From Hyphomicrobiales bacterium (GTDB lineage: Bacteria; Pseudomonadota; Alphaproteobacteria; Rhizobiales; Rhizobiaceae): a stretch of DNA of 49,894 nt. Position 1 is the first letter of the stretch; every line of letters starts with the position of its first letter. The notes below the pieces were generated by a model. That model was not told where the DNA came from. It saw nothing but the letters and a program-made list of their open reading frames with translations, and did not search any database. The stretch spans positions 1-49,894 of the forward strand of contig UCOA01000097.1 in the NCBI GenBank assembly GCA_900474095.1. Reading direction: 5' to 3'. The position numbers were made by a program, and so were the translations under genes. This document shows positions 1,751 to 35,835 of the stretch, in pieces.

Positions 1751-1818
1751 GCCATCCTCCATCCGTTCTTTAGCGCCAATTTCCTCTTGACGAAAGTTTA
1801 AATCCAAAACATATTATT

Positions 1819-1859: not shown

Positions 1860-1993
1860 ATCAAGGGTCCGCTTGAGGAGGCGGTGAATTGGAGGATGCG
1901 ATTTCCCGCGTCGACTTGAACTGAACTGACAGGGACCGCCAGCCGGGCGGCCCGGGTGTTTCCCTGCGCGGAAACGTTTGGAGGAGGAAGAAT

Positions 1994-2971: not shown

Positions 2972-3002
2972 TCTTTTCCGCAACGCGTTCTCCCGGGCTG
3001 CT

Positions 3003-3022
3003 GGGCTGGCTTCGGCCGGCTC
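3003..3022 (+). promoter_or_regulatory. UUCG-capped stem-loop between binding-protein and ATPase genes
   Basis: GGGCTGGC-TTCG-GCCGGCTC folds into an eight-pair stem (two G-U pairs) closed by a C(UUCG)G tetraloop, 32 bases after the binding-protein stop. No U-tract follows. Position and form fit an RNA-stabilising or attenuating hairpin that raises binding-protein expression over the membrane components. Confidence 0.5.
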
Positions 3023-3055
3023 GGCGGTGCCTGGTGATTTTCACAGGTTGATGCG

Positions 3056-6556: not shown

Positions 6557-6560
6557 AGCC

Positions 6561-7409
6561 ATGGAAGGTTTTGGGGTTCATACCAGCATGTGGACTATGA
6601 ACTGGGACCGTGCAGGGGCGGAAAAGGCGATTGCCGCCGCCGTCAAATACGAGATGGATTTCATCGAGATCGCGCTGCTCAATGCACCGGCGGTGGATGC
6701 GGACCATAGCCGCAAGCTGCTTGAGAAACACAAGCTGCGCTCGGTCTGCTCGCTCGGCCTGCCCGAGCATGCCTGGGCCTCGGTGCATCCGGAAAAAGCC
6801 GTCGAGCACCTGAAGGTTGCCATCGACAAGACGGCGGACATGGGCGCGGAAGCGCTGTCCGGCGTCATCTTCGGCGGTATCGGCGAGCGCACCGGCGTGC
6901 CGCCGACCGAAAAGGAATACGACAATATCGCCCGTGCCCTGCAGGCGGCGGCGAAACATGCAAAGACGCGCGGTATTCAGCTGGGCGTCGAGGCGGTGAA
7001 CCGCTACGAGAACCATCTCATCAACACCGCTCGCCAAGCGGTGGATATGATCGAGCGTGTCGGCGCCGACAATGTCTTCGTGCACCTCGACACCTATCAC
7101 ATGAACATCGAGGAGAAGGGCGCCGCCAACGGCATTCTCGATGCGCGCGATCACCTGAAATACATCCATCTTTCGGAAAGCGATCGCGGCACGCCGGGCT
7201 ACGGCAACATCCCCTGGAACGAGGTCTATGCGGCGCTGGCCGCCATCGGCTTCAAGGGCGGGCTGGCGATGGAAAGCTTCATCAACATGCCGCCGCAGGT
7301 GGCCTATGGCCTAGCTGTTTGGCGTCCGGTGGCGAAGGACGAGGCGGAAGTAATGGGCAATGGGCTCCCGTTCCTGCGCAACAAGGCGCGGCAATACGGC
7401 TTGATCTGA
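6561..7409 (+). CDS. ketose 3-epimerase / sugar isomerase of the D-tagatose 3-epimerase family
   Basis: 282 residues forming a TIM barrel of the xylose-isomerase-like superfamily. The four metal-binding and catalytic positions of D-tagatose/D-psicose 3-epimerases are all visible: Glu144 (GVEAVNRYEN), Asp177 (HLDTYHMNIEE), His203 (IHLSESDRG) and Glu238 (AMESF). The DRGTPGYGNIPW loop after His203 is typical of this family. It probably inverts C3 of the imported ketose or a derived sugar so that the downstream kinase and aldolase can act. Encoded four bases after the permease gene. The real substrate cannot be read from sequence; aldose-ketose isomerisation is an alternative. Confidence 0.88.
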   Translation: MEGFGVHTSMWTMNWDRAGAEKAIAAAVKYEMDFIEIALLNAPAVDADHSRKLLEKHKLRSVCSLGLPEHAWASVHPEKAVEHLKVAIDKTADMGAEALSGVIFGGIGERTGVPPTEKEYDNIARALQAAAKHAKTRGIQLGVEAVNRYENHLINTARQAVDMIERVGADNVFVHLDTYHMNIEEKGAANGILDARDHLKYIHLSESDRGTPGYGNIPWNEVYAALAAIGFKGGLAMESFINMPPQVAYGLAVWRPVAKDEAEVMGNGLPFLRNKARQYGLI

Positions 7410-7473
7410 CGACAAGGGCCGTTTCCGGTGGCGCGGGAATGGCCGCACGGGCAGGCAGTTTCGGGATAAGGAA

Positions 7474-8937
7474 ATGGCGGACGGGCATAGGATTGATCGA
7501 AGGGACGACGTGCAGCCGGCGACTGTCGTGGTCCTTGATGTCGGCAAGACCAATGTGAAGCTCAATGCCGCCACGGCATCGGGCACCATCCTCGAAACGC
7601 TGTCGGTGCCCAATCCGGTGGTTGAGGATGGGCCATGGAAACATCACGACCTGCATACCCTCAGTGATTGGGTGTTCGACACTCTTGCGACGCTCTCAAG
7701 GCACCATCCGCTATCGACATTCGTCTCCTCCGGTCATGGCTCCGGCGGTGTTCTTGTCGGCTCCGATCCTGATGCGGGTGACGGGGCTGCCCTACCGATG
7801 ATCGACTACGAGCAGGCTCTGCCTGACGATATCCGCATGCGTTATACGCCATTGTCCGGCTCGTTCTTCGACCGTGGCAGCGCGATGATGCACGGGGCTA
7901 CCCATCAGGCGCGGCAGATGTTCTGGATGCAGCAGGCAGCGCCTAAGGCGTTTTCGCGGGCGCGCTGTTTTCTGGGTGTGCCGCAATACTGGGCGTGGCG
8001 GCTGTCGGGTGTTGCCGTCTCGGAGACAACGGTTCTCGGTGCACAGTCGCATCTCTGGAACGTCGCGGAAAAACGCTGGTCGCCGATTGTCGGTTCGCAG
8101 AGCTGGGGAGATATCTTGCCGCCGTTCGCCAAGGCTTGGGAGGTGGTCGGAACCATCCGTCCGGCAATCGCCAAAAGACACGGGCTGCCCTCAAACATGA
8201 AAGTGCTGGCCGGCATTCATGACAGCAGTGCGAATTTCTACCGCTATCAAGCGGCCGGGTTCGATGACGCGACGGTCGTATCGACCGGCACCTGGATCGT
8301 TGCGCTTAGCGGTAAAACGCCGCTTGAGCGACTGGACGAACATCGTGGAATGACCTGCAACAGCGATGTTCACGGCCGACCGGTTGGCGGCGCGCTGACC
8401 ATGGGTGGGCGGGAATTCACGCATGTCACCGGCCGTGACGATGCTCACCGCAACGCGGACGCCAGACTGATCAGCCGGATGATCGGGCAGGGCACCATGG
8501 CCCTGCCATCCTTCGGCGACGACGACGGATTGTTTCCCCATAGTGCCGGCAAGGGCCGGATCGCAGGGCCAAAGCCTGCCGATGCTGCCGAGCGCAAGGC
8601 CTTGGCGGTGCTTTATACCGCGCTGTTGACGGTGGAATGTCTCGACGCCTTGGGAAGCAGCGGCCGGGTAATTCTCGATGGCATTTTTCTACGCGATCCG
8701 CTTTATGCGGCGCTCGTCGCTGCGCTGCGCCCACGGTGTGATACGGTCTCCAATCTCGATACTTGCGGTGTGGCGTCCGGCGCTGCACTTCTCGCGCGCC
8801 ACGGATCCCCGCCGGCCAGCGTGGCGATCGCTCTCGAAAAGCCACGGGTTTTCCATTACCCACCGGCCGAACTGGCTGCCTATGTCCGCAGCTGGCAGGC
8901 AGCCGCCAGACAGTCTTCAATGCGAATTTCAACGTAA
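7474..8937 (+). CDS. FGGY-family carbohydrate kinase (fuculokinase/rhamnulokinase-like)
   Basis: 487 residues with FGGY-kinase landmarks: the N-terminal phosphate-binding loop LDVGKTNVKL (residues 21-30), the second-domain GIHDSSANFYRY (about residue 247, containing the catalytic-base type Asp) and STGTWIVAL (about residue 270). It should phosphorylate a ketose, probably at C1, producing the substrate of the class II aldolase encoded next. Start ATG 7474 has GGATAAGG just upstream; a GTG at 7510 is possible and would remove twelve poorly conserved residues. It sits between the epimerase (64 bases before) and the aldolase (19 bases after) in the same operon. Confidence 0.88.
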   Translation: MADGHRIDRRDDVQPATVVVLDVGKTNVKLNAATASGTILETLSVPNPVVEDGPWKHHDLHTLSDWVFDTLATLSRHHPLSTFVSSGHGSGGVLVGSDPDAGDGAALPMIDYEQALPDDIRMRYTPLSGSFFDRGSAMMHGATHQARQMFWMQQAAPKAFSRARCFLGVPQYWAWRLSGVAVSETTVLGAQSHLWNVAEKRWSPIVGSQSWGDILPPFAKAWEVVGTIRPAIAKRHGLPSNMKVLAGIHDSSANFYRYQAAGFDDATVVSTGTWIVALSGKTPLERLDEHRGMTCNSDVHGRPVGGALTMGGREFTHVTGRDDAHRNADARLISRMIGQGTMALPSFGDDDGLFPHSAGKGRIAGPKPADAAERKALAVLYTALLTVECLDALGSSGRVILDGIFLRDPLYAALVAALRPRCDTVSNLDTCGVASGAALLARHGSPPASVAIALEKPRVFHYPPAELAAYVRSWQAAARQSSMRIST

Positions 8938-8956
8938 TGCAGGAAAGGTCCATCCC

Positions 8957-9661
8957 ATGAGCAATGAACACGCCGACATAACCGCCCTGCGCCGGGAATT
9001 GGTCGATACCTGCCGGCGGATGAATTCGAGTGGCATCAACCAAGGGACGGCCGGAAACGTGTCCGTGCGGGCAGGTACCGGTTTTCTCATCACACCGTCA
9101 TCCTTGCCTTATGACACGATGACACCGGATGATCTGGTGGAGATGGATTTCGATGGCACCTATCTCGGGCGCAGGCCGTCATCCGAATGGCGCTTCCACC
9201 GGGATATCCTGAAGAACCGAGCAGATATCAATGTCGTGCTGCACTGCCATTCGATCTACGCGACGACCCTCGCCTGCCACCACAAGACCATTCCGAGTTT
9301 CCACTACATGACCGGAATTGCCGGCGGAACGACGATCCGTTGCGCCGAGTATGCGACGTTCGGCACGCAAGCCCTGTCGGATCATGCTTTGGTGGCGTTG
9401 AAGGACCGGCTTGCTTGCCTGCTCGGCCAGCACGGTCAGATCTCGCTCGGAAAGACACTGGAAGCGGCTCTGTGGCTGGCGATCGAGATCGAGACACTGT
9501 CGCGCATGTACGTGCAGGCCCTGACGCTCGGCGAGCCGCCGGTACTGCCCGACGATGAAATGGCGCGGGTGATCGAACAGATGCGCAAGATGAGCTACGG
9601 CCATGCGCCGGACGCGGAAGGGATCAACGACGTGGCCCGGCCGCGGGCAACCGCGTTTTGA
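8957..9661 (+). CDS. class II aldolase (L-fuculose/L-ribulose phosphate aldolase family)
   Basis: 234 residues, the usual length. Zinc ligands are recognisable as His96 and His98 (LHCHSIYAT) and His159 (GQHGQISLG); the catalytic acid is Glu77 (SSEWRFHRDI). The N-terminal GNVSVR and TPSSLPYDTM phosphate-binding segments are also present. It would cleave a ketose 1-phosphate into dihydroxyacetone phosphate and an aldehyde, finishing the pathway of this operon. The frame is open from 8678, but that overlaps the kinase; ATG 8957 with AGGAAAGG upstream gives the family N-terminus. A 4-epimerase function, seen in AraD, cannot be excluded. It is the last gene of the operon. Confidence 0.9.
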   Translation: MSNEHADITALRRELVDTCRRMNSSGINQGTAGNVSVRAGTGFLITPSSLPYDTMTPDDLVEMDFDGTYLGRRPSSEWRFHRDILKNRADINVVLHCHSIYATTLACHHKTIPSFHYMTGIAGGTTIRCAEYATFGTQALSDHALVALKDRLACLLGQHGQISLGKTLEAALWLAIEIETLSRMYVQALTLGEPPVLPDDEMARVIEQMRKMSYGHAPDAEGINDVARPRATAF

Positions 9662-11810: not shown

Positions 11811-12848
11811 CTATCCCAGGACGATGCGTTCGCCGCTTGCTGCCGATTGTTTAACGGCCGTGATGACCTTCAGCGTGTTCAGCCCTGCGCGCCCGCTGAC
11901 CCGCGGCGCTTCTTCACCGCGGATCACCTTGCAGAACTGTCGGATCTGCAGCACCAGCGGGTCTTCGGCCTCAACGGCGACGCGGCGCTTTTCGAAGGGC
12001 TCCCACCAGCTGCGTTTTATGCCATTCTTCCACACGTCGAGCGCAGGGATCGTCAGGGATCCGTGTGTCCCTCCGATCATGTAGCATGCCTCTTCCGATT
12101 TCGGATAAGCTGGGTTTTCGCCCGTCGTCATCTCCCAGCTCCAGGGTGCGACGACGGCATCCGAAACGGAGGCAGTGGCGAGAAGACCGCTTTCGAATTC
12201 TATCAGGATCACCGAGGTCTCCTCGACGGCATTGCCGCGGACGGCACTGGATTCGCGCGCCTGGACGCCAACGATTTCGCCGAACAGGTAGCGCAGATTA
12301 TCGACGTCGTGGATCAGGTTGAGGAAGACAGGGCCGGCCCCGGCCTGGCGCCGCCAGTCGATGTCGAAATAGTCGTCCGGCTTGAACAGCCAGAACATAG
12401 CATTGACCACGAGGATGCGGCCAAGCTCGCCACTGTCGATGATCTCTTTTGCCTTCTGGATCATCGGATTGTGGCGGCGGTGGTGGCCGACCAGAAGCGG
12501 AACGCCAGCGGCTTCCGCCGCACCGATCAGCTTTTCACCGGCCGCTATATCGTCGGCAATCGGCTTTTCGATCAGCGCCGGCACCCCGGCGGCAACGGCT
12601 TCGAGACCGTTGGCGACATGGACCTGGTTGGGCGTCGCGACGATGACGCCGTCGGGGCGATCCGTCTCGATCATTGCCGCAAAGCTCGGGAACCATTTAG
12701 CGCCCGATTTCTGCGCGATCTGCTGCCCGAGCGGCATCGGATCGACGACAGCCAGAAGTTCCGCCTGCGGCTCGGCAAGCACGTGCTGGATATGTCGCCT
12801 GCCGATCAGGCCGGCGCCGAGCACCGCAAGCTTCACCTTCTGATCCAT
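11811..12848 (-). CDS. Gfo/Idh/MocA-family NAD(P)-dependent oxidoreductase
   Basis: 345 residues. The Rossmann motif VLGAGLIGRRH sits near the N-terminus, EKPIADD carries the conserved Lys of the EKP motif (about residue 97), and the alpha/beta domain has GHHRRHNPMIQKAKEII with the DVDNLRY segment around the catalytic His region. These enzymes oxidise or reduce cyclic polyols and sugar-type substrates. As last gene of the minus-strand shikimate/quinate-type operon it could oxidise quinate, shikimate or a related cyclitol acid. Its start lies 16 bases after the dehydroquinase stop. Function beyond family is inference. Confidence 0.88.
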   Translation of the reverse strand: MDQKVKLAVLGAGLIGRRHIQHVLAEPQAELLAVVDPMPLGQQIAQKSGAKWFPSFAAMIETDRPDGVIVATPNQVHVANGLEAVAAGVPALIEKPIADDIAAGEKLIGAAEAAGVPLLVGHHRRHNPMIQKAKEIIDSGELGRILVVNAMFWLFKPDDYFDIDWRRQAGAGPVFLNLIHDVDNLRYLFGEIVGVQARESSAVRGNAVEETSVILIEFESGLLATASVSDAVVAPWSWEMTTGENPAYPKSEEACYMIGGTHGSLTIPALDVWKNGIKRSWWEPFEKRRVAVEAEDPLVLQIRQFCKVIRGEEAPRVSGRAGLNTLKVITAVKQSAASGERIVLG

Positions 12849-12864: not shown

Positions 12865-13314
12865 TCACTTCTTCTCGGCAGACGTGATCAGGCTTGCCAC
12901 CCGGCGGATCGCAAGCTGATAGCCTTCGGTTCCAAGACCGGCGATTACGCCATCGGCGCGGTGCGAGACGAAGGAATGATGGCGGAAGGCTTCACGCTTG
13001 TGGACGTTGGAAATATGCACTTCGATGACCGGCTGCTCGAAGGTGTTCAACGCGTCGAGAATGGCGACGGAGGTGTGGGTGAAGGCGGCCGGATTGATGA
13101 CAATGCCGGCCCCGTCCTCGCGCGCTTCATGGATCCAGTCGATGATCTCATATTCACGATTGCTCTGGTGAAAGCGGATGTCGTGACCGAGTTCAGAGGC
13201 GAGCCGGCGGCAATCGGCTTCGACATCAGCGAGCGTCTCGTGGCCGTAGATGTGCGGCTGGCGCTTGCCAAGCAGATTGAGGTTCGGGCCGTTGAGAACA
13301 TAGATCAGGCTCAT
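12865..13314 (-). CDS. aroQ: type II 3-dehydroquinate dehydratase
   Basis: 149 residues, the typical length for type II dehydroquinase. The N-terminus [18 protein letters not shown] contains the flexible lid with Arg and the catalytic Tyr. Also present are the [16 protein letters not shown] block (substrate Asn and catalytic-His region), [17 protein letters not shown], and [10 protein letters not shown]. It interconverts 3-dehydroquinate and 3-dehydroshikimate. In this operon it probably serves catabolism of imported quinate-like acids (the QuiB/QutE role) rather than aromatic amino acid synthesis. The longer frame to 13599 is upstream read-through; ATG 13314 has an AAGGAAGAA site. Lies between the tautomerase and oxidoreductase genes. 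Confidence 0.93.
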
Positions 13315-13342: not shown

Positions 13343-13711
13343 TCATGGCAGTGTGGTCTCGTGGATCGCAAAATCGGGATCCGACTGAATAAGATCAGCA
13401 CGCAGGCCGCAGCGCCCCTCATCGAGCGCCGGACGTACGATGCTTTCGGCTGCGTCATAGACCATTTGCAATATCGCTCGCTTTTCGGCTGCAGAGCGTC
13501 CGGGCGCGATCCGCAGAATGATCTGCACGAACTGATTGGCAGAATGCTCGTCGGCGACCAGTGAGTGCGTAGCCTCGCGCGCAAAGGTGCGCACGGCATT
13601 CGGCTTCACCGCGCCGCTGTCACGTACGCTGCGATGAACGACCTTTACCAACGCCGGCATGTCGATCCGACTTCCGGCTCCCTCGCTATATTCGATCACA
13701 ATGTGTGGCAT
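13343..13711 (-). CDS. 5-carboxymethyl-2-hydroxymuconate isomerase-like tautomerase (CHMI/HpaF family)
   Basis: 122 residues. Met is followed by Pro2, the catalytic base of the tautomerase superfamily ([13 protein letters not shown]). The rest fits [41 protein letters not shown], and a conserved basic C-terminal half. CHMI moves the double bond in 2-hydroxymuconate-type ring-cleavage products. It is embedded between shikimate dehydrogenase and dehydroquinase genes, while the matching hydratase and aldolase are in the divergent operon at 20486-22044, indicating both operons serve one aromatic degradation route. The homoprotocatechuate extradiol dioxygenase and semialdehyde dehydrogenase that normally accompany HpaF are absent. 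Confidence 0.87.
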
Positions 13712-13736
13712 CCTGTTCCTCCTTCGCCAGCCTGGA

Positions 13737-14612
13737 TCAGGAGGCTCTGCACAGTTCGGTGAAATGGGTGCTCATGCGTTCGGCGTCGGGTTCGATACCG
13801 CAGAACAGCTTGAACGCGGCCGCCGCCTGAAACACCGTCATTCCGCCTCCGGGCAAGGTGCGGCAGCCAAGGTGGGTGGCAAGCGCTAGAAGCTCGGTCA
13901 CCAGCGGCATGTAGACTATGTCGGCAACCCAATGATGGGATTCCAGCCAACTTTCCTCGATCGGCAGCCCGGGATGGTTCTTCATTCCAGTCGGCGTCGC
14001 GTGGATGAGGCCATCAGCGGTCCGCATCGCTTCACCGACATCGGTGATCGAAAAAGCCCGTTCGGCGGAAAACCGGCGGTTCAGATCTTCGGCCAGCTTT
14101 GTCGACCGTGCAATATCCTGATCGAAAATCGCGAGATGCTCGATGCCGAGTTTCATCGCGGCATGTGCTACCGCGACCCCGGCGCCGCCGGCGCCCAGAA
14201 GGACCGCCCGATGCCGCGGGATGTCAGGAAGGCCGCGCCGAAAGTTTTCATAGAAACCGTACCAGTCCGTGTTGTGACCGGTCCGCTTTCCATCCTTGAA
14301 CACGACCGTGTTGACCGCGCCGAGCATGAGCGCATCCTCGGACATATCTGTCAGATGCGGAATTACCGCCTGCTTGCAGGGGTGGGTGATGTTGCTTCCG
14401 GCAAAGCCACGCGCTTCCTCCTCCGCAAGGAGATCAGGCAGGGCGGTAGCCGGGAGGCCGCGCTCTGCAAGGTCGAGGAGTTCATAGCGATAGTCGAGGC
14501 CTTGAAGCGTGCCCTCGCGCTCGTGCAGGGCAGGGGACTTCGACATCTGGATATCCGCGCCGATCAGTCCCACCAACACAGCGCGTTTCGTCGTTTCGTT
14601 TGAAACAGTCAT
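13737..14612 (-). CDS. aroE: shikimate/quinate dehydrogenase family protein
   Basis: 291 residues. The substrate-binding SxS region is IQMSKSPALHE, the catalytic Lys-Asp pair is seen in GSNITHPCKQAV and HNTDWYGFYENF, and the NAD(P) glycine loop is LLGAGGAGVAVAHA. The C-terminal GGGMTVFQAAAAFKLF is typical of AroE/YdiB. It interconverts shikimate and 3-dehydroshikimate (or quinate and dehydroquinate). Residues after the glycine loop (AIFDQDIARS, with an acidic residue) suggest NAD rather than NADP, consistent with a degradative role; that reading is tentative. It sits 12 bases upstream of the ABC ATPase stop in an operon with dehydroquinase, so it is probably a catabolic paralogue. Confidence 0.92.
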   Translation of the reverse strand: MTVSNETTKRAVLVGLIGADIQMSKSPALHEREGTLQGLDYRYELLDLAERGLPATALPDLLAEEEARGFAGSNITHPCKQAVIPHLTDMSEDALMLGAVNTVVFKDGKRTGHNTDWYGFYENFRRGLPDIPRHRAVLLGAGGAGVAVAHAAMKLGIEHLAIFDQDIARSTKLAEDLNRRFSAERAFSITDVGEAMRTADGLIHATPTGMKNHPGLPIEESWLESHHWVADIVYMPLVTELLALATHLGCRTLPGGGMTVFQAAAAFKLFCGIEPDAERMSTHFTELCRAS

Positions 14613-14624
14613 GTGCGGATTGCC

Positions 14625-15386
14625 TTAATGATGGGCCAGGATTTCGCCGAGAAAGGCCTGGGTGCGCGGATGCGACGGATTGCGGAAGAATGTTTCCGGG
14701 GGCGCTTCTTCGATGATCTCGCCGGAGGCCATGAAGATCACGCGGTCGGCCACCTGCCGGGCAAAGCCCATTTCATGGGTGACGCAGATCATCGTCATGC
14801 CGTCCCTGGCCAGACCGATCATCGTGTCGAGGACTTCCTTGACCATTTCGGGATCAAGGGCGCTGGTCGGCTCATCGAACAGCATGGCTTTGGGCTCCAT
14901 GCAGAGCGCGCGCGCAATGGCTACGCGCTGCTGCTGCCCGCCCGAAAGCTGGGCCGGGAATTTGTCGGCCTGGTCGAGAATGCGGACGCGCTCAAGATAT
15001 TTGCGGGCGATTTTCTCGGCATCCGCCTTGCTGGTGCCGCGCACCCGCATCGGCGCGAGCGTGCAGTTTTCCAGGATCGTCATATGCGGAAAAAGGTTGA
15101 AGCTCTGGAACACCATGCCGACTTCGCGCCGGACGGCATCGATCGACTTGCCGCTGTCATCCAACTTTGTCCCCTCGACCATGATCGTGCCCTTCTCGAT
15201 TTTCTCGAGCGCATTGATACAACGGATGAGCGTGGACTTGCCGGATCCGGACGGCCCGCAAAGGACGATCTTCTCGCCTTTGCGAACCGTAAGGTTGATG
15301 TTCTTCAACGCATGGAATGCGCCGTACCATTTATCTACGGCTTCCATAGAAAGCAGCGGGCTTTGAGTGTCAGCGGCGTGCGGCAC
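14625..15386 (-). CDS. polar amino acid-type ABC transporter ATP-binding protein (GlnQ/HisP family)
   Basis: 253 residues with complete ATPase motifs: Walker [12 protein letters not shown] (about 39-49), Q-loop in [14 protein letters not shown], signature [15 protein letters not shown], Walker [16 protein letters not shown], and the H-loop in CVTHEMGFA. HisP/GlnQ-type ATPases act with two permeases and a family-3 binding protein, all encoded directly upstream in the same operon. The company of shikimate dehydrogenase, dehydroquinase and a tautomerase suggests the importer carries a cyclic carboxylate such as shikimate or quinate rather than an amino acid. That substrate is inferred. Confidence 0.94.
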
Positions 15387-15411
15387 GGCGATCTCCTGCG
15401 CAGAACTTGGA

Positions 15412-16254
15412 TCAGTTGATGGTGAAGGGGATGTTCGGAATGGATTCGGGGAACGTCGGAACCTCCACCTTCATCCATTTCGCGTAGACCTTGGCGTGCT
15501 CTCCGTTCGCCAAGATCTTGTCGAGGAAGGCGTTGACGGCTTCATTCCAGTCCTTCTCGCCAAGCCGTGTTCCGACGCCGTTGTACGTCGTCAGGAAATC
15601 GATCTTGCGTTCATATGTGCCGGCACTGGCTGCTTCCAGACGGTCGAGGTAGAACTGGTTGCCGCCGACCGCCTGCACCTGGCCGGAAAGCAGCGCCTGG
15701 ATGGACGCGGCATCATCGTCGAAACGCCGGACGGTCGCCGTATCGCCGACAGCGGTGGTCACCGCCTTATCCTGCGAGCTTGACTTTGGAACGCCGATCT
15801 CCAGGCCTGCGAGATCGCCGATTTCGGCCATCTTCTTGTCCTTCGGTCCATAAAGCGAAATTGTATTGCCCGCATACGGCTTGCTGTACTGGATCGACTT
15901 GGCGCGTTCCTCGGTCATCGCCATGGTGGCAAACAGGATATCGACCTTGCCGGTGACGAGAGCCGGGATGCGATTAGCGACCGCAAGCGGCGCGAATTCG
16001 ACTTCAACGCCCAGTTCTTTGGCGAATAGCTTGGCGACATCGGCGTCGAAACCGTCCTGAACGCCGCTCGAATTGAGGAAACCCCAGGGTGCGTTGTCGC
16101 CCTGAATGCCGACGACGATCTTGCCCTTGGTCTTGACCTCCTCGACCGTTGCAGCCTGTGCAGACATGGGCGATAGCCACGGGGCCATCATCAGGGCTGC
16201 GGCTGCGAACAGAATTCCACGGCGCTTCAGGCCGGTCTTGAAGCTGCTGATCAT
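15412..16254 (-). CDS. family-3 ABC transporter periplasmic binding protein (candidate shikimate/quinate-type acid binder)
   Basis: 280 residues. Signal peptide of about 34 residues ([16 protein letters not shown], then a hydrophobic core ending SAQA), then a type II binding fold: [51 protein letters not shown] and [14 protein letters not shown]. An AAGGAGGAGA site precedes ATG 16254. Family-3 proteins normally bind polar amino acids through an Arg-Asp pair (here [10 protein letters not shown] retains the Arg region). It serves the two permeases encoded upstream in the same operon. Ligand is unproven; the enzymes around it point to a plant-derived cyclic acid. Confidence 0.92.
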
Positions 16255-16305
16255 TACCTTCTCCTCCTTGGTTGATAGAGCTTGTGCGTTCGTTGGATTG
16301 CCAAC

Positions 16306-16971
16306 TTACCGGGCGGCCTTGGCCATCCGTTTTTCGAGCTGGGCCCCATAGAGAGAAAGGGGCCAGCAAATGACGAAGTAGATCGCGCCGACGATGCCGA
16401 AGACCAGCAGCGGCCTGTAGGTCTGGTTCGAGACGATCTGTCCGGCGCGAGCGAGTTCGATGAAGCCGACGATAGCGGCAAGCGACGTGCCCTTGATGAG
16501 CTGGACGAGAAATCCGACGGTTGCCGGCAGCGAGACCTTTAAGGCCTGTGGAAGAACCACGTCCTTCATCCGCGAGACGTAATGGAGACCCAGCGCATTG
16601 GCGGCCTCACTTTGTCCCTTGGGTATCGCCTGGATACCGCCGCGCCAGATCTCGCCGAGAAATGCGCTGGCATGCAGCGTGAAGGCGATGGCGACGGCCA
16701 CCCAGGCCTCGATGCTGACGCCGAGAAGGGCAATGCCGTAGTAGACGACGAACAGCTGCATCAGCAGGGGCGTGCCCTGGAAGACGGAGATATAGCCCGC
16801 CGCCGACTTGCGGAGCGCGGAATGTGCAGACGTCCTGGCAAGCGCGATGATGAGCCCGAATAAGCCGCCACCGATGAAGCCGATCGCAGATAGAAGCAGC
16901 GTCCACTTCAGGCCTTGCAGCAGGAAAAGCAGTTCGTTTTGGCCGATAACACCCATTGTCCTGCTCCTCAC
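16306..16971 (-). CDS. polar amino acid-type ABC transporter permease (HisM/GlnP family)
   Basis: 221 residues with about five transmembrane helices (GLKWTLLLSAIGFIGGGLFG near the N-terminus) and the conserved permease loop EIWRGGIQAIPKGQSEAANALGL, the EAA motif that docks on the ATPase. The PLLMQLFVVYYG segment is also typical. It starts four bases inside the end of the neighbouring permease gene (overlap 16968-16971), so the two are translationally coupled and likely form a heterodimer. Part of the importer with the binding protein downstream. Confidence 0.92.
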   Translation of the reverse strand: MRSRTMGVIGQNELLFLLQGLKWTLLLSAIGFIGGGLFGLIIALARTSAHSALRKSAAGYISVFQGTPLLMQLFVVYYGIALLGVSIEAWVAVAIAFTLHASAFLGEIWRGGIQAIPKGQSEAANALGLHYVSRMKDVVLPQALKVSLPATVGFLVQLIKGTSLAAIVGFIELARAGQIVSNQTYRPLLVFGIVGAIYFVICWPLSLYGAQLEKRMAKAAR

Positions 16972-17636
16972 CGCATCGGATAGTTGAAGAAATGACGGGA
17001 GATCAGCGCAAACAGCCCCATCATCATCCAGGAGATGGCGAGATACATGAGCGTGATCGTGAAATAGACCTCGAAGCTGCGGAACGTATCGGACTCGATG
17101 ATCTGTGCGACGGAGGTCAACTCATAGGCTGCGATCGACGTGCAGACCGATGTCGTCAGCGTCAGCATGATGAATTGGCTGGTCAACGAGGGGTAAATCG
17201 CTCGAAGCGCCGGTTTCAGCACGATCAGGCGAAACACCTGCGCCTTGTGCAGGCCAAGGGCGAGGCCTGCTTCAACCTGACCCTTGTGGACGCTGTCGAC
17301 CCCGCCGCGAATGATCTCGATCGCATAAGCGCCGCCGTTGATGGCCAGCGCGATGATCGCCGTGACCGTGGGGTTGAGGCGAATGCCCATCATCGGTAGG
17401 GCGAAGAAAATGAAGAAAATCTGCACCAGGAAAGGGGTATTTCGGACCACTTCGACGAAGGCGATGACGGCCGCGCGCAACGGACGGATATTCGATGTTC
17501 GGGCCGCGACCCCGATGACGCCGATCACCAGCGCCAGCGACATGCCGGCCAGTGCCAAGCCGATCGTCGCCAGAGCCGCCACCAGCAGGTCGGGCATCTT
17601 TTCGAAGACAACGCTGAAATCCAGCACGTAATTCAT
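16968..17636 (-). CDS. polar amino acid-type ABC transporter permease (HisQ/GlnP family)
   Basis: 222 residues starting MNYVLDFSVVFEKMPDLL. Several hydrophobic helices and the EAA-type loop EIIRGGVDSVHKGQVEAGLALGL mark it as the partner permease; NTPFLVQIFFIFFALP is the other family hallmark. The frame is open to 17702, but the first 22 residues are polar and unlike the family; ATG 17636 fits. Encoded 77 bases after the TIM-barrel gene and overlapping the second permease by four bases. Confidence 0.9.
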   Translation of the reverse strand: MNYVLDFSVVFEKMPDLLVAALATIGLALAGMSLALVIGVIGVAARTSNIRPLRAAVIAFVEVVRNTPFLVQIFFIFFALPMMGIRLNPTVTAIIALAINGGAYAIEIIRGGVDSVHKGQVEAGLALGLHKAQVFRLIVLKPALRAIYPSLTSQFIMLTLTTSVCTSIAAYELTSVAQIIESDTFRSFEVYFTITLMYLAISWMMMGLFALISRHFFNYPMR

Positions 17637-17713
17637 GGCAATATCTCTCTCCCGCCGACGGGCTCCTCTGCCTGTCTTCGTGTGTGGGTATCCGTTTTGC
17701 ACTGGGCTTCTGG

Positions 17714-18544
17714 TTAGCCGGTCAACGCTCGGGCGGCATCATGAAGGTGACGCAAATGCTCCTCCGGCGCCTGGCTGGAATGGATCGGCACCTCCACCGA
17801 GACCGCAGCGCCTGTCGGCAACACCCTCATCAGGCTCGCAACGGGAAGCTCACCCAGCCCCGGCGCAAAACGCCCCGTTCTGGCCTCGCTGACCATTTGA
17901 TCCGCCGTTCTCGGCGCGGGTCCGCGGGCGTCGCAGAGCTGAATGCTCCTGATCATACCTTGGGGGGCAGCAGAGACATCCTTGGCTTGGCCGCCATTGC
18001 GGAAGAAATGCAAAGCATCTACTAGCGCACCGGCATTGCCCCGTTCCGATTCCTGCGCGATCGACAGGCTGTCATCAAAGCTGGCGACGGTGCGCCAGCC
18101 CATGTTCTCAAGATCAACCCCCATGCCGAAGGAGGCCGCGAGGTCGCAAAGCGCCGCGAAATTGGCGACAAGGCGCCCCCGATCCGAGTCGTCGCCGCAA
18201 ACATTGAGACGGCGCGCCCCAAGCGCGCTGGCGGCTTCAAGCATCGACGTCAGAGCAGCGGCATCGAAGTCCGGGCCGATGACGACGAATTCGATGTCAT
18301 AGAGCGAGATTCCTTCACCATCCAGCCGTGCTCTTACGTCGCGAGCAGCGTCGCTTCCCACCGGCAGCTCATAATAAGGAGCGCCAGGAAATGCCGGATG
18401 AAGGCGTAGGCCAACCGATGAAAAACCGGCTGCGGCTGAGAGCGACACGAATTTTGCCGGCTCGACGTCGATCGCTGAAAAATGCGCGACCCCCAGCGAA
18501 GGCACAAAAGTCTTGGGTGGGATTGTTTCCTCCCCGGGCTCCAT
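17714..18544 (-). CDS. sugar phosphate isomerase/epimerase-like TIM barrel (candidate 3-dehydroshikimate dehydratase)
   Basis: 276 residues of the AP-endonuclease-2/xylose-isomerase-like TIM-barrel superfamily. Metal-site candidates are the Glu in VDLENMGWRTV, Asp and His in LVDALHFFRNGG, the IQLCDARGP strand (Gln-Asp where many relatives have His), and Glu in VSVEVPIHS. Bacterial 3-dehydroshikimate dehydratases of the AsbF/QuiC type belong to this superfamily, and the operon encodes shikimate dehydrogenase and dehydroquinase but no other dehydratase. Conversion of 3-dehydroshikimate to protocatechuate is therefore the leading guess, but an isomerase role is equally allowed by sequence alone. 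Its ATG directly follows the regulator's stop codon (TGAATG). Confidence 0.75.
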   Translation of the reverse strand: MEPGEETIPPKTFVPSLGVAHFSAIDVEPAKFVSLSAAAGFSSVGLRLHPAFPGAPYYELPVGSDAARDVRARLDGEGISLYDIEFVVIGPDFDAAALTSMLEAASALGARRLNVCGDDSDRGRLVANFAALCDLAASFGMGVDLENMGWRTVASFDDSLSIAQESERGNAGALVDALHFFRNGGQAKDVSAAPQGMIRSIQLCDARGPAPRTADQMVSEARTGRFAPGLGELPVASLMRVLPTGAAVSVEVPIHSSQAPEEHLRHLHDAARALTG

Positions 18545-19282
18545 TCAGGCGATCCCCTTTTCCGCGAGATGCTTTCGCAGATTTGTTCCGGTGCGATGAA
18601 TGTGTTCGCGAAGCCGGTCGCAGGCATAGTCCATATCCCGCGACACGGTGCCCTGTGCGATTTCGCTGTGTTCAACTCTGACATTGCGGTCGCCGGATGT
18701 GCGGGTGAGAAAGGTGCGCCGGTAGCGGTCGTTCAGGTTCAGCATGGTCTTGCAGAAACTGAGAAGCAGCGGTTTGCGGCAGCCGGAAATCAATGTGAGA
18801 TGAAACTCCCGGTGAACGGCCTCCCATTGCTCGAGCGTTTCGGGTTTGGAGGCATCCCGCTCCGTGCGGTTCAGGCGGTGCAGCGCGCGCATGACATTGC
18901 CCTCCCAATCGACATCGCCGACGCGCATGGATTCTCGCAGCGCATAGGTTTCGAATTCCTCGCGCAAACTGGTGATCTCTTCGAGGTTCGACAGCGAAAC
19001 GGGCGATACGCGGTAGCCGCGATTGTCTTCGAACTCGACGAGCCCGTCCGAAATCAGACGCGCCAATGCCTCGCGCAAAGGACTGAGGCTGACGTTAAAA
19101 CTCTGTTTTGCCCGATCGAGATTGATCTTGCTGCCTGCCTCGAGCTGGCCGGAAATGATCGCCTCGCGCAAGCGCGAAACAAGCTGGCTGGCGATCGTGT
19201 TCTTGCCGTCATCCAAAAACGAGGGGGGCGTTACCGCCTCCGCGCCGCTCTCCAAAATCAGGCTTCCAGGCCCTGATCGCAA
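18545..19282 (-). CDS. GntR-family (FCD) transcriptional regulator
   Basis: 245 residues. An N-terminal winged helix (QLVSRLREAIISGQLEAG, then FNVSLSPLREALARL and a LVEFEDNRGYRV wing) precedes an all-helical FCD effector domain with metal-ligand-type residues in EEFETYALRES and REFHLTLISG. The start is a TTG at 19282 with GGGAGG seven bases upstream; no in-frame ATG near it gives a full helix-turn-helix. It is first gene of the minus-strand shikimate-type operon and faces the divergent ring-cleavage operon at 19571, so it probably governs both. FCD regulators usually respond to carboxylic acids, which suits this pathway. Confidence 0.9.
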   Translation of the reverse strand: MRSGPGSLILESGAEAVTPPSFLDDGKNTIASQLVSRLREAIISGQLEAGSKINLDRAKQSFNVSLSPLREALARLISDGLVEFEDNRGYRVSPVSLSNLEEITSLREEFETYALRESMRVGDVDWEGNVMRALHRLNRTERDASKPETLEQWEAVHREFHLTLISGCRKPLLLSFCKTMLNLNDRYRRTFLTRTSGDRNVRVEHSEIAQGTVSRDMDYACDRLREHIHRTGTNLRKHLAEKGIA

Positions 19283-19570
19283 TTGACATCCTCCCAGATG
19301 CTTTCGCCGCGTTTTCTGACGGCGGATTTCATTATCGACGATCGGTATAATAAACGATTATTAATGTCAAATAGTTTTGGTGCGACTGGCGTCAATCTTC
19401 AGAGGGTAAGCGACCTGATGTAGTTTTAATCCAATTAAATCAATATTATAATTTCGGATCTCGATGGAGACATGCGTATTCCTTCGAAATACCCTCCTTT
19501 TGCGCGGAGGTTGAGCTTGACAAATAATCGATGATTTTTCAAAACAGATGCGCCCACAGGGAGGTGTGAG
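19283..19570. promoter_or_regulatory. divergent promoter region with GntR-type operator candidates
   Basis: Two AT-rich motifs share AATAATCG. One is ATAATAAACGATTAT (19347-19361, inverted repeat ATAAT/ATTAT), next to the minus-strand operon start. The other is AATAATCGATGATT, directly overlapping a TTGACA (19517-19522) that could be the -35 box for the dioxygenase operon. No clear -10 box follows. Both sites fit binding by the FCD regulator encoded at 18545-19282. Confidence 0.5.
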
Positions 19571-20464
19571 ATGGTAATACGGACCCAAGAAGATGTGACG
19601 GCGGCTGTTTTGAAGGTTATGCAGCAGACCTCAGACGATCGGCTTCGCGAGATTCTGACGGCATTGGTGAAGCATCTTCACGCATTTGTTCGCGAAGTCC
19701 GTTTAACGGAGCCGGAATTTCGCGATGCCACGGCGGTCCTTAACGAAATCGGCCAGTTGCAGACGGGCAGCCACAACGAGTTCGTCCTGATGTCGGGTTC
19801 GTTGGGCGTTTCAACGCTGGTCTGCCTGCTCAATAACGGCGATCAGGGCCAGACCGAAACGTCCCAGTCGCTGCTTGGTCCCTTCTGGCGCCTTAACTCG
19901 CCGCGCGTTGAAAATGGCGGCACTATTGTCCGGTCCGATACGCCGGGTTTCCCACTTTTTGTTCACGCGCGGGTGGTGGATGGGCACGGCAGGCCCATTG
20001 CTGGTGCCGAAGTGGATGTCTGGCATGCGTCGCCCGTCGGTCTCTACGAGAACCAGGACCCCGATCAGGCCGAGATGAACTTGCGGGGCAAATTCACCAC
20101 GGACGCAGACGGACGCTTCTGGTTCAGCACGGTCAAGATGGTGGGATATCCGATCCCGGTGGACGGTGTCGTCGGTCGACTTTTGAAGGCGCAAGGACGT
20201 CATCCCCATCGCCCGGCCCATCTGCACGCGCTGATCTTCAAGCAAGGATACAAGACCCTTATTTCGCAGGTCTTCGATCCCAGCGATCCGCATATCAATT
20301 CCGACGTGCAGTTCGGCGTGACGTCCGCGCTGACGGGCGATTTCGTGCAGCACGACGAACCACATCCGGACGATCCAAATGTGAACGTTCCCTGGTTTTC
20401 ACTTGAATACACATACGTGATGGAACCGGGCGACGCGGTTCTGCCGCGCGCGCCAATCAAATAA
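19571..20464 (+). CDS. intradiol ring-cleavage dioxygenase (catechol/hydroxyquinol 1,2-dioxygenase family)
   Basis: 297 residues. The N-terminal helical dimerisation domain typical of catechol and hydroxyquinol dioxygenases is present (about residues 20-95), followed by LLGPFWR and the catalytic beta-barrel. Non-haem Fe(III) ligands are Tyr159 (PVGLYEN), Tyr193 (MVGYPIP), His217 and His219 (RPAHLHAL). It cleaves between two hydroxylated ring carbons. The presence of the helical domain argues against a protocatechuate 3,4-dioxygenase. The next two genes encode a hydratase and aldolase normally found after extradiol cleavage, an unusual pairing. ATG 19571 follows AGGGAGGTG. First gene of the plus-strand operon facing the GntR gene. 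Confidence 0.93.
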   Translation: MVIRTQEDVTAAVLKVMQQTSDDRLREILTALVKHLHAFVREVRLTEPEFRDATAVLNEIGQLQTGSHNEFVLMSGSLGVSTLVCLLNNGDQGQTETSQSLLGPFWRLNSPRVENGGTIVRSDTPGFPLFVHARVVDGHGRPIAGAEVDVWHASPVGLYENQDPDQAEMNLRGKFTTDADGRFWFSTVKMVGYPIPVDGVVGRLLKAQGRHPHRPAHLHALIFKQGYKTLISQVFDPSDPHINSDVQFGVTSALTGDFVQHDEPHPDDPNVNVPWFSLEYTYVMEPGDAVLPRAPIK

Positions 20465-20485
20465 ACAAACGGGAGAACCACATCC

Positions 20486-21268
20486 ATGTTGACGGGTGAA
20501 GAACGACGCAGCGCGGCGCAGTCCTTGTTGGACGCCGAGGAAAGCCGGGTGCCGATCCCGCAACTCAGCAAGACCTTTCCCCAGATTGAGATCGAGGATG
20601 CCTATCGCATCCAGGATCTTTGGGCGGAGGGCAGGATTGCCAAAGGCGCGCGCGTCGCAGGCCACAAGATCGGCCTGACGTCGCGGGCCATGCAGATGGC
20701 ATCGCAGATGACCGAGCCGGATTACGGGCGCATCCTCGATGATGCTCTGTTCAACGATGGCGCCCAGATCAGGGCCGACCTCTTCATCAAGCCGCGCCTC
20801 GAAGTCGAACTTGCCTTCATCATGGGTGAGGATCTCGAAGGCCCGAACACCCGCATATACGACGTCATGCGCGCCACCGAATTCATCGTGCCGGCGCTCG
20901 AAATCATCGACTACAGAACCGAGGTTCCCCGCGCGATCACCGATACCATCGCGGACAACGCTGCCTTCGGCGCCATTGTCATCGGAGGCCGGGTCATCCG
21001 CCCGATGGATGTCGATATCAGGTGGATCGGGGCAACGCTCTCCAAGAATGGGATCATCGAGGAATCCGGTGTATCTGCCGCGGTCATGGGGCATCCGGCG
21101 GCGGGCGTCGCCTGGCTTGTCAATAAGCTTCATGCGGTGGGCGGCAAGCTGGAGAAGGGGCAGATCGTCCTGGCCGGCTCGTTCACGCGGCCCGTCGATA
21201 TTGCCGCCGGCGATGTCATCCAGGCGGATTACGGACCGATCGGCGCGCTCGGCGTTTCGTTCCTATAG
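20486..21268 (+). CDS. 2-oxo-hept-3-ene-1,7-dioate hydratase-like (HpaH/MhpD family)
   Basis: 260 residues with the fumarylacetoacetase/hydratase fold. Metal ligands appear as Glu-X-Glu in LEVELAFIMGEDLEG and a further Glu in PALEIIDYR. GHKIGLTSRAMQ and the C-terminal LVNKL...GQIVLAGSFTRPV are shared with HpaH. HpaH adds water to 2-oxo-3-enedioates after tautomerisation of a meta-cleavage product. Here it stands after an intradiol dioxygenase and before an HpaI-like aldolase, while a CHMI tautomerase is in the facing operon. GGGAG ribosome site at 20471. Chain-length preference (C6 or C7 diacid) cannot be told from sequence. Confidence 0.9.
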   Translation: MLTGEERRSAAQSLLDAEESRVPIPQLSKTFPQIEIEDAYRIQDLWAEGRIAKGARVAGHKIGLTSRAMQMASQMTEPDYGRILDDALFNDGAQIRADLFIKPRLEVELAFIMGEDLEGPNTRIYDVMRATEFIVPALEIIDYRTEVPRAITDTIADNAAFGAIVIGGRVIRPMDVDIRWIGATLSKNGIIEESGVSAAVMGHPAAGVAWLVNKLHAVGGKLEKGQIVLAGSFTRPVDIAAGDVIQADYGPIGALGVSFL

Positions 21269-21276
21269 GTGGTGTC

Positions 21277-22044
21277 ATGAATCATCCGGAAAACCACTTC
21301 AAGCGGGCTCTGCGCGAAAAAAGGCAGCAGATAGGTCTCTGGTGCAGCCTGCCGGGCAGCTATGCCGCGGAGATCGTGGCGCCTTCGGGCTTCGACTGGC
21401 TGATGTTCGACACCGAACACTCGCCGAGCGATGTGCTGACGGTCTTGCCGCAATTGCAGGCGGTCGCGGCCTACGACGTCTCGGCGATCGTGCGGCCTGC
21501 CAGCAATGACGCGGTGCTGATCAAGCGGTACCTCGATATCGGCGCGCAGACGCTGCTCCTTCCCTATGTGCAGAACCGTGCGGAAGCGGAAGCCGCGGTT
21601 TCCGCCATGCGCTATCCTCCGGCCGGTATCCGCGGCGTTTCCGGGCTGACGCGGGCGACGCGTTTTGGGCGTGTCGCCGGCTACGCGAAGCGGGCAGAGG
21701 AGGAGTTGTGCCTGCTGGTGCAGCTGGAAACTCGTGCGGCACTCGTGGAGCTTGAAGCCATTGCCTCCGTTGATGGCGTCGATGGTATCTTCATCGGCCC
21801 TGCCGATCTTGCGGCCAGCCTTGGTCACCCGGGAGAGCCAGGTCATCCCGAAGTCGTCGCTGCCGTCGAGGATGCGATCACCCGTCTTGCAGCACTCGGC
21901 AAACCGGCGGGCATCCTGACGCCGAACAATGCATTTGCGGCCCGCTGCATTGAACTCGGAACGACCTTTACCGCGGTCGGCATCGATGTCGGTCTTCTCG
22001 CTCACGGGACCGAGGCGCTCGCAGCCAAGTTCAAGCCACGCTGA
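21277..22044 (+). CDS. HpcH/HpaI-family aldolase (4-hydroxy-2-oxodiacid aldolase-like)
   Basis: 255 residues, the length of HpaI/GarL class II pyruvate aldolases. Conserved parts are LMFDTEHSPSD (catalytic His), AIVRPASND (pyruvate-binding Arg), LCLLVQLETRAAL (metal Glu) and DGIFIGPADLAASLGHPG (metal Asp and substrate loop). It cleaves 4-hydroxy-2-oxodiacids to pyruvate and a semialdehyde. It follows the hydratase by eight bases, so the product of that enzyme is the likely substrate. From a seven-carbon diacid the second product would be succinate semialdehyde; from a six-carbon one, malonate semialdehyde. Confidence 0.91.
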   Translation: MNHPENHFKRALREKRQQIGLWCSLPGSYAAEIVAPSGFDWLMFDTEHSPSDVLTVLPQLQAVAAYDVSAIVRPASNDAVLIKRYLDIGAQTLLLPYVQNRAEAEAAVSAMRYPPAGIRGVSGLTRATRFGRVAGYAKRAEEELCLLVQLETRAALVELEAIASVDGVDGIFIGPADLAASLGHPGEPGHPEVVAAVEDAITRLAALGKPAGILTPNNAFAARCIELGTTFTAVGIDVGLLAHGTEALAAKFKPR

Positions 22045-22083
22045 CCAGCGGGTTTGCGTTCTATTCGGCAGAGGATCGAAAAC

Positions 22084-22812
22084 ATGACCGACGAAATTGC
22101 ACGTTCGCGCGCCGCGCTGTTACCGAAGGGCTATCTGCGTGCGGCGGTCAACCTTGCCAACATTGCCTTGGTGGGAGGCGATCCGGCGACTGGCAAATTC
22201 GAAGGCGTCAGCGTTGAACTGGCCCGGGATCTTTCAAAGCGTCTCGGTTGTCGCGTCGAATTTGTTACATATCCTTCGGCCGCCAAAATCCTGGAAAAGG
22301 TCGATCAGGACGAGTGGGACATCGCCTTTCTGGCCGCCGATCCGGCCCGTGAAGACAGGCTTTTATTCTCGCCTGCCTATGCGCTGATAGAAGGCACGCT
22401 TGTGGTGCGGGAGGAAAGTCCGTACCGCTCCTTTTCTGATATAGATATGGAGGGGGTGAAAGTCTGCGTCACGCGAAACGCTGCATACGACCTCCATTTG
22501 GCGCGGCGTCTCGCTCACGCCAAAATGGTTCATGCGTCAACGCCAGCGAAATCACTCGACCTATTTGTGAACGGCAATCATGAGGCGTCTGCGGGCATAA
22601 AGCAGGCACTTGAGCGCTTTGTCAGCGAGCATGAAGGGTATCGTATTTTAGTCGAACCGTTCCTCATTATCAGGCAAACGATTGCTGTCAGTTGTTCCCA
22701 CTCATCTGCTGGTCTCCTGGTGCGCGCATTCGTCGAGGACGCTCTCCAACAGGGCTTCTCGGAAAACGTCATCCGCGAAGCGCAACGCAATGGCGTTGCC
22801 TTGGCAAATTGA
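22084..22812 (+). CDS. family-3 binding-protein-like protein without signal peptide
   Basis: 242 residues matching family-3 solute-binding proteins in order: LRAAVNLANIALVGG, FEGVSVELARDLSKRLG, DEWDIAFLAADPAREDRLLFSPAYALIEGTLVV. The N-terminus (MTDEIARSRAALLPKG) is charged and has no signal peptide or lipobox, so it is probably cytoplasmic. It could sense or sequester a pathway intermediate, or resemble cyclohexadienyl/arogenate dehydratases, which share this fold; the latter is speculation. The start at ATG 22084 is preferred over a TTG at 22054. Last gene of the intradiol operon, 39 bases after the aldolase. Unlike the minus-strand binding protein it has no dedicated transporter beside it. 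Confidence 0.78.
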   Translation: MTDEIARSRAALLPKGYLRAAVNLANIALVGGDPATGKFEGVSVELARDLSKRLGCRVEFVTYPSAAKILEKVDQDEWDIAFLAADPAREDRLLFSPAYALIEGTLVVREESPYRSFSDIDMEGVKVCVTRNAAYDLHLARRLAHAKMVHASTPAKSLDLFVNGNHEASAGIKQALERFVSEHEGYRILVEPFLIIRQTIAVSCSHSSAGLLVRAFVEDALQQGFSENVIREAQRNGVALAN

Positions 22813-32491: not shown

Positions 32492-32495
32492 CTTC

Positions 32496-35116: not shown

Positions 35117-35117
35117 G

Positions 35118-35818: not shown

Positions 35819-35835
35819 CGCATTCTTTGGGAGGA

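Follow-up and report, generated by a model that had tools for sequence, protein, structure and literature searches.

A conserved intradiol dioxygenase gene cluster with a predicted role in gallate degradation

Results

We analysed a stretch of 49,894 nucleotides (contig UCOA01000097.1 of the Hyphomicrobiales assembly GCA_900474095.1, hereafter the window), and in particular a group of genes built around an intradiol ring-cleavage dioxygenase (IDO), an HpaH-like hydratase and an HpaI-like aldolase. These genes form a real, conserved catabolic cluster, present in root-associated and various other Proteobacteria. Judging from the sequence, its most probable function, by a modest preference, is intradiol cleavage of gallate, a widespread plant phenol with ties to shikimate, to 4-carboxy-2-hydroxymuconate, followed by tautomerase, hydratase and aldolase steps that would yield pyruvate and oxaloacetate. 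More tentatively, we propose a complete scheme in which shikimate or quinate would be converted into intracellular gallate, and then into pyruvate and oxaloacetate by way of a dedicated intradiol gallate dioxygenase, the same module being also plugged into LigM or aromatic-hydroxylase upper pathways on plasmids.

A conserved cluster around the dioxygenase

The three core genes follow each other on the plus strand: the dioxygenase (19571..20464, a single-domain protein matching PF00775 and PF04444, and member of the G76/Q247 clade described below), the hydratase of the MhpD/FAA family (20486..21268; TIGR02312, 363.8 bits for a cut-off of 351.5; 280.8 bits to the solved 2eb4) and the class II pyruvate aldolase (21277..22044; TIGR02311, 382 bits for a cut-off of 368.8; 289 bits to the solved 2v5j). 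A CHMI-family tautomerase (13343..13711; PF02962, 76.7 bits, cut-off 26.5) is encoded on the minus strand; it scored 28 bits against the 4-hydroxyphenylacetate pathway equivalog, where 215 are needed, and is not a member of HpaF. The original prediction had described an intradiol dioxygenase with four iron ligands, followed by a hydratase and an aldolase, and a CHMI tautomerase encoded by the operon opposite, and all of these were confirmed. It had also remarked that the extradiol dioxygenase and semialdehyde dehydrogenase were missing. This agrees with a Pfam scan of 40 translated open reading frames of the window (6 of which matched nothing; the remaining frames, mostly small, lay outside the scan), where no extradiol dioxygenase (HpaD) or aldehyde dehydrogenase (HpaE) domain was found. 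Genes that it had missed are, on the facing strand, a GntR regulator, a TIM barrel protein, an ATP-binding cassette (ABC) transporter, AroE, AroQ and a Gfo/Idh/MocA oxidoreductase (Gfo), as well as, behind the aldolase, a solute-binding-like gene.

A scan of species genomes yielded 152 relatives of the dioxygenase, and the best 80 of these 152 loci (72–95% identity) were kept. Together with 5 further loci they made a set of 85, among which 66 were flanked by 8 kb or more upstream and 3 kb or more downstream; the 19 short-flank loci were left out. Presence of a neighbour was called at an identity threshold chosen for each gene, for example 50% for AroQ, 34% for the TIM barrel, 65% for HpaH and 45% for Gfo. 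HpaH was found in 50 flanked loci, which amount to 49 distinct ones; L107 and L041 are the same place, as are L110 and L023. The families named in the original prediction proved to be conserved together, HpaI being present in all 50 HpaH-bearing loci and CHMI in 44. The TIM barrel was likewise present in 50 of 50, GntR in 49, AroQ in 48, the homologue of the SBP_bac_3-like gene in 46, AroE in 43 and Gfo in 41, with one or the other of these last two in 47. As for the transporter, permease 1 was detected in 43 of these loci, the solute-binding protein in 44 and the ATPase in 43. Nearly all genes were kept in most Shinella, Sinorhizobium, Ensifer, Mesorhizobium and Rhizobium loci, and a reduced core in Methylobacterium, Microvirga, Paracoccus and Aminobacter. 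At two more distant loci, L101 (60% identity) and L175 on a Sagittula plasmid (62%), the order GntR-TIM-AroQ-Gfo-IDO-HpaH-HpaI-SBP was found on a single strand. Since gene order is kept across many genera, the juxtaposition is not due to chance. The 16 flanked loci without HpaH belonged mostly to Bradyrhizobium, and 13 of them had pcaF next door, followed at the loci inspected by pcaH (L084, 379.7 bits) or by two more intradiol-family genes (L076).

Pocket residues and phylogeny of the dioxygenase

The closest solved relatives of the window dioxygenase are PnpC and the hydroxyquinol 1,2-dioxygenase 1tmx. An alignment of 122 non-identical sequences was grouped by identity to the window protein, the top group, or clade, comprising 86 rows (at least 68% identity, plus L101). 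The iron ligands Y159, Y193, H217 and H219 were kept in all 86 rows, which places the protein in the intradiol superfamily. Residues Asp83 and Val251 of 1tmx, which we take to line the hydroxyquinol pocket, align with G76 and Q247 of the window protein (numbering read from the alignment to 1tmx), and this Gly/Gln pair, noted GQ below, occupied the two positions in 86 of 86 clade rows. Among the rows below 46% identity, 22 of 22 had Asp at position 76 with Val, Ile or Leu at 247, and 12 of these Asp-type rows had a maleylacetate reductase within 6 kb. Asp and Val were also found in the 6 rows at 46–50% identity, while the 8 intermediate rows comprised 3 with G and Q and 5 with Asp. A GQ pocket was seen in every inspected row with HpaH, AroQ, LigM or DmpH-like neighbours, and also in Bradyrhizobium rows lacking those neighbours and in the isolated rows L102, L130 and L131. 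Asp rows had different neighbours, including beta-keto-acid cleavage enzymes (BKACE) in L106, L132, L176 and L178. In a tree of 54 rows, obtained by a quick search without bootstrap and rooted on presumed outgroup rows that did not form one group, all 26 GQ rows fell on one side of a single branch (SH-aLRT 99).

No maleylacetate reductase (at least 45% identity) was present in any of the 66 flanked loci. Such a reductase was found in 23 of the 37 genomes searched, including that of the window, where it is adjacent to a separate, Asp-type intradiol dioxygenase. On the grounds of pocket residues, tree and gene context, identity as a hydroxyquinol dioxygenase was rejected, and the opinion expressed in the original prediction, that cleavage of hydroxyquinol to maleylacetate does not fit this gene set, was thus upheld.

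Two side observations were made on related dioxygenases. Sister enzymes with 47–61% identity and Asp at position 76 (L103, L104, L106, L126, L132, L133, L176 and L178) were in several cases linked to short-chain dehydrogenase/reductase, BKACE, quinone oxidoreductase or cupin genes, and may serve a hydroxyquinol route devoid of the classical maleylacetate reductase. At L102 (338-4318, genome G091), a GQ-type homologue (55%) lies beside genes read as TcuB and TcuA of tricarballylate utilisation; an FAD_binding_2 domain was confirmed for the TcuA reading, and no Pfam match was obtained for the TcuB reading. A tricarboxylate would be in keeping with a product of the gallate type.

A predicted route from gallate to pyruvate and oxaloacetate

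The chemistry of HpaH and HpaI needs a 2-oxo/2-hydroxy-dienoate, so that the ring must bear a third hydroxyl adjacent to the diol that is cleaved, and a ring-cleavage product of the 2-hydroxymuconate type, as anticipated in the original prediction, is supported. That prediction had nevertheless favoured pyrogallol and a six-carbon route to malonate semialdehyde, mentioning gallate-type carboxylated analogues as a side remark. The order of preference is now reversed, because a carboxylated ring is indicated by AroQ, AroE and a TIM barrel resembling dehydroshikimate dehydratases, by LigM adjoining the set on a plasmid of Agrobacterium, and by the pca or lig genes that neighbour the Bradyrhizobium homologues. 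Dehydroshikimate minus two hydrogens is gallate, and LigM makes gallate from 3-O-methylgallate. Among the products common to the dehydroshikimate- and O-demethylase-fed routes, gallate would be the one that yields a 2-hydroxymuconate by intradiol cleavage, from which we infer a seven-carbon route.

In detail, the cluster would degrade gallate, part of which would arise inside the cell from shikimate or quinate. AroE and AroQ would bring shikimate and 3-dehydroquinate to 3-dehydroshikimate, and a two-electron oxidation, by Gfo here, by an FAD dehydrogenase in some relatives, or spontaneously, would then give gallate. Oxidation of dehydroshikimate to gallate is known from plant DQD/SDH (dehydroquinate dehydratase/shikimate dehydrogenase) enzymes, and gallate also forms from it spontaneously at high pH (PMC7752791). 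Cleavage between C3 and C4 by the dioxygenase would produce 4-carboxy-2-hydroxymuconate, the enol of 4-oxalomesaconate, to be ketonised by the CHMI-type tautomerase, hydrated by the HpaH-like enzyme to 4-carboxy-4-hydroxy-2-oxoadipate, and split by the HpaI-like aldolase into pyruvate and oxaloacetate. The last three enzymes would take the place of GalD, GalB/LigJ and LigK, respectively, without being related to them.

Genes of the upper half

The minus-strand genes facing the dioxygenase start with a divergent GntR/FCD regulator (18545..19282; PF00392, PF07729) and the xylose-isomerase-like TIM barrel (17714..18544; PF01261). The predicted model of the latter had a pLDDT of 94, and both Foldseek and profile searches gave IolI, QuiC1 and Lmo2234 as nearest relatives. 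Its residues E146, D176, H179, Q202, R225 and E251, invariant in 22 sequences, align with Glu134, Asp165, His168, Gln191, Arg210 and Glu239 of QuiC1, and IolI-type isomerases share much of the set. The list of QuiC1 active-site residues was taken from PMC7442255. The window protein has a single domain and scored only 27.7 bits with a QuiC model requiring 1200. It may enolise or dehydrate dehydroshikimate.

Next come an ABC transporter of the amino-acid type, with two permeases (16968..17702, PF00528, 62 bits; 16306..16971, PF00528, 66.3 bits, in conserved order), a periplasmic solute-binding protein (15412..16254; TIGR01096, 132.1 bits, below cut-off) and an ATPase (14625..15386; GlnQ model, 317.2 bits, below cut-off), and then the AroE-like shikimate dehydrogenase (13737..14612; NF009201, 441.8 bits, cut-off 235). 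Beyond the tautomerase are the type II 3-dehydroquinate dehydratase AroQ (12865..13311; TIGR01088, 191.2 bits, cut-off 169.85) and Gfo (11811..12848; PF01408/PF22725, nearest solved relatives 3q2k and 3q2i), all on the minus strand. On the plus strand, the aldolase is followed by the SBP_bac_3-like gene (22054..22812; PF00497, 49.7 bits).

Plasmid and alternative neighbourhoods

In a plasmid collection, the dioxygenase was detected in 84 records (E≤1e-100), 43 of them from Agrobacterium. The pAt plasmid CP048549 of the walnut isolate Kin003 carries CHMI-GntR facing IDO-hpaH-hpaI-SBP, then a LigM-type O-demethylase (854 bits for a cut-off of 580; 819 bits to the solved LigM), an annotated methylenetetrahydrofolate reductase gene and purU, and, further along, a p-hydroxycinnamoyl-CoA hydratase/lyase, an acyl-CoA synthetase and an aldehyde dehydrogenase. 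Homologues of TIM, AroQ, Gfo and AroE were absent from 28.9 kb of this plasmid (tblastn, E≤1e-4). The LigM arrangement was inspected on this one plasmid; on others of equal length, the dioxygenase lies at an identical coordinate. LigM is a vanillate/3-O-methylgallate O-demethylase.

On two Bosea plasmids, IDO-hpaH-aldolase is accompanied by folD and purU; one of them also has an FAD dehydrogenase and an annotated 4-hydroxybenzoate 3-monooxygenase gene, and the other (L177, Bosea 685) a malonyl-CoA synthase and decarboxylase nearby. On pSWIT02 of Sphingomonas wittichii RW1, an FAD monooxygenase precedes IDO-HpaH. At Caballeronia L179 (57%), a two-domain QuiC (904 of 1200 bits) replaces the TIM barrel and is followed by LysR, IDO, a pentenoate-hydratase-like gene (335 of 350 bits) and a DmpH-like gene (214 of 350.55 bits), both below cut-off, then a major facilitator superfamily (MFS) transporter (by reading), AroE and AroQ. 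Overall, tblastn detected TIM in 4 of nine plasmid loci (it was absent from L170, both Bosea, RW1 and Caballeronia), and AroQ only in Sagittula and Caballeronia. It thus seems that the dioxygenase-hydratase module stays constant, and that TIM and AroQ form one upper half that can be exchanged for others.

A Bradyrhizobium metagenome-assembled genome (L071) presented the order FAD dehydrogenase-AroQ-unknown-IDO, followed by a 4-oxalomesaconate tautomerase (536 bits, cut-off 440), a hydratase (721.5 bits to 2gwg) and a LigK aldolase (406 bits, cut-off 304.5). The FAD dehydrogenases of L071, L095 and L173 are similar to ketosteroid and oxocyclohexene-carboxylate dehydrogenases, a fitting type for the oxidation of dehydroshikimate to gallate. 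The unknown protein of L071 (7592-8266, about 220 residues, no Pfam or NCBIfam match) is conserved in L095, a second Bradyrhizobium assembly of this kind, where it lies between AroQ and the TIM barrel (7087-7740).

The LigJ and LigK genes of Methylobacterium G846 were considered as a possible sign of 4-oxalomesaconate made by the dioxygenase, and this was discarded because the locus that holds them has its own glyoxalase-family (PF00903) dioxygenase-like and tannase-family genes. This gallate-like locus (L166, 5288-13065) comprises the glyoxalase-family gene, which is possibly a VOC-type gallate dioxygenase, MFS, LigJ, LigK and the tannase-family gene (PF07519, 452 bits); no LigB-family enzyme was found in G846 at E≤1e-5.

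Other pathways in the same genome, and other clusters in the window

Elsewhere in its own genome, the window cluster is accompanied by a two-domain QuiC (692.9 bits, model cut-off 1200) together with an AroE paralogue and genes of the tripartite ATP-independent periplasmic type (by reading), and by a second pair of HpaH (49%) and HpaI (51%). With these and the maleylacetate reductase set, the window cluster is seemingly not needed for protocatechuate, homoprotocatechuate or hydroxyquinol. No dioxygenase of the PF02900 (LigB) family was found in this genome at E≤1e-5 (the family was present in 4 of 14 control genomes), nor a LigJ-type 4-oxalomesaconate hydratase at E≤1e-60 (matches were obtained in 6 of 36 genomes). 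A further search with LigB proteins also gave no match; as it had no positive control, we give it no weight.

Three other groups of genes were noticed in the window. On the minus strand, positions 31457-45283 encode a Gfo/Idh/MocA protein, a sugar ABC transporter, a PGDH_C protein, a triosephosphate isomerase family protein, a DUF1537-type kinase, a RuBisCO-like protein (PF00016, 252 bits) and a match to citrate-lyase-alpha (CitF), presumably a cluster akin to those of four-carbon-acid or apionate catabolism. A separate sugar or polyol catabolic cluster (689-9661) comprises a LacI regulator, a sugar ABC transporter, a second TIM barrel, an FGGY kinase and a class II aldolase. A gene of the phosphoenolpyruvate mutase family (PF13714, 250.5 bits) lies at 47788-48669.

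Discussion

Several observations weigh against gallate as the substrate. A yeast catechol dioxygenase had 0.02 U/g on gallate versus 0.59 U/g on pyrogallol (PMC9204233). In Bradyrhizobium, the dioxygenase mostly has pcaF as a neighbour and no cluster HpaH, and LigJ is frequently missing. The TIM barrel, found at all 50 HpaH-bearing flanked loci, is not required for any step of a gallate route and retains the metal-site residues of QuiC1; its role may simply be to produce protocatechuate. None of the oxidoreductases is universal: at 3 of the 50 loci, neither Gfo nor AroE is nearby. The residues named in PMC7752791 look canonical in the window AroE, and by motif inspection the canonical shikimate-dehydrogenase motifs are apparently kept, so that this enzyme should be a poor gallate-former and its candidacy for that step is weakened. 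The LigM linkage was inspected on one plasmid, and the enzyme also acts on vanillate and makes protocatechuate; no clear enrichment of LigM was seen in genomes with the dioxygenase, as it was over cut-off in 12 of 101 genomes and in 2 of the 8 with a dioxygenase of at least 55% identity. The lig genes of L071 possibly form an operon for 4,5-cleavage of protocatechuate, like those of G841, and were therefore given moderate weight. Finally, the Caballeronia and Bosea 685 neighbourhoods suit 2-hydroxymuconate, and hence pyrogallol, equally or better.

An alternative that we hold unlikely, though the most serious, is that the substrate is another dehydroshikimate derivative, such as a trihydroxybenzoate other than gallate or a non-aromatic enediol produced by the TIM barrel, or else that AroE, AroQ and TIM make protocatechuate while IDO, HpaH and HpaI act on a gallate-like compound taken up from outside, with a single regulator for both. 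The presence of the TIM barrel, with its QuiC1-like metal site, in all 50 flanked loci, the lack of a universal oxidoreductase and the pca genes beside the Bradyrhizobium dioxygenase speak for it; however, protocatechuate cleavage yields no 2-oxo product for HpaH, and a second protocatechuate route would be redundant in a genome already endowed with a full-length QuiC and an AroE paralogue. Less probable still is cleavage of pyrogallol to 2-hydroxymuconate, with tautomerase, hydratase and aldolase leading to pyruvate and malonate semialdehyde. Turnover of pyrogallol by a catechol-type intradiol dioxygenase, with a product assigned as 2-hydroxymuconate, is described in PMC9204233; the hydratase-like and DmpH-like genes following the Caballeronia dioxygenase are of the kind that ends an oxalocrotonate route, and malonyl-CoA synthase and decarboxylase genes lie nearby at Bosea L177. 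Yet no pyrogallol source and no gallate decarboxylase were recognised in the cluster, and the AroQ/AroE/TIM and LigM neighbourhoods would supply carboxylated rings. We give very little credit to an ordinary hydroxyquinol or catechol 1,2-dioxygenase with HpaH and HpaI nearby by chance: its closest solved relatives are of the hydroxyquinol type and maleylacetate reductase occurs in 23 of the 37 genomes searched, the window's own included, but the Gly/Gln pocket is invariant in the clade, no reductase of at least 45% identity lies in any of the 66 flanked loci, and in the own genome it lies beside another dioxygenase, of the Asp type.

If gallate is indeed the substrate, this would be a bacterial route in which the ring is opened by an intradiol enzyme, which is unusual. 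It would explain the fate of shikimate- and tannin-derived phenols around roots in many rhizobia and agrobacteria, and offer a dioxygenase-hydratase-aldolase set for the upgrading of lignin and syringyl compounds. In work on such upgrading, PMC6628648 left for the future a dioxygenase able to open the ring of the vicinal triol pyrogallol and give a usable product. Among the titles and abstract openings listed by searches of an open-access library, several of them narrow, none described an intradiol gallate dioxygenase or this cluster. In Aspergillus flavus, 4-carboxy-2-hydroxymuconate and pyruvate from gallate were ascribed to an extradiol enzyme (PMC10512348).

Among known systems, the gallate pathway GalA(DesB)-GalD-GalB/LigJ-LigK of Pseudomonas putida and Sphingobium has the same intermediates as predicted here, 4-oxalomesaconate and 4-carboxy-4-hydroxy-2-oxoadipate, and the same end products. 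It differs in its ring-opener, an Fe(II) extradiol enzyme instead of an intradiol-family one, and in the families of its tautomerase, hydratase and aldolase. Homoprotocatechuate (4-hydroxyphenylacetate) meta-cleavage by HpaDEFGHI has the CHMI, HpaH and HpaI families in common with the window cluster, where HpaD and HpaE were not found, a second HpaH/HpaI pair being present elsewhere in the genome. With the hydroxyquinol 1,2-dioxygenase of the resorcinol pathway the cluster shares the dioxygenase sequence family, but neither the pocket Asp83/Val251 pair nor the linkage to maleylacetate reductase. Quinate and shikimate catabolism (AroE-type dehydrogenase, AroQ, QuiC) shares AroQ, AroE and a dehydroshikimate-dehydratase-like TIM barrel, whereas the window TIM barrel is single-domain and weakly QuiC-like, and the linked ring cleavage is other than pca. 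Lastly, intradiol opening of a vicinal triol is shared with yeast Acdo1p, which converts pyrogallol to 2-hydroxymuconate (PMC9204233); in the window cluster, by comparison, the predicted substrate is carboxylated and dedicated hydratase and aldolase genes are linked to the dioxygenase.

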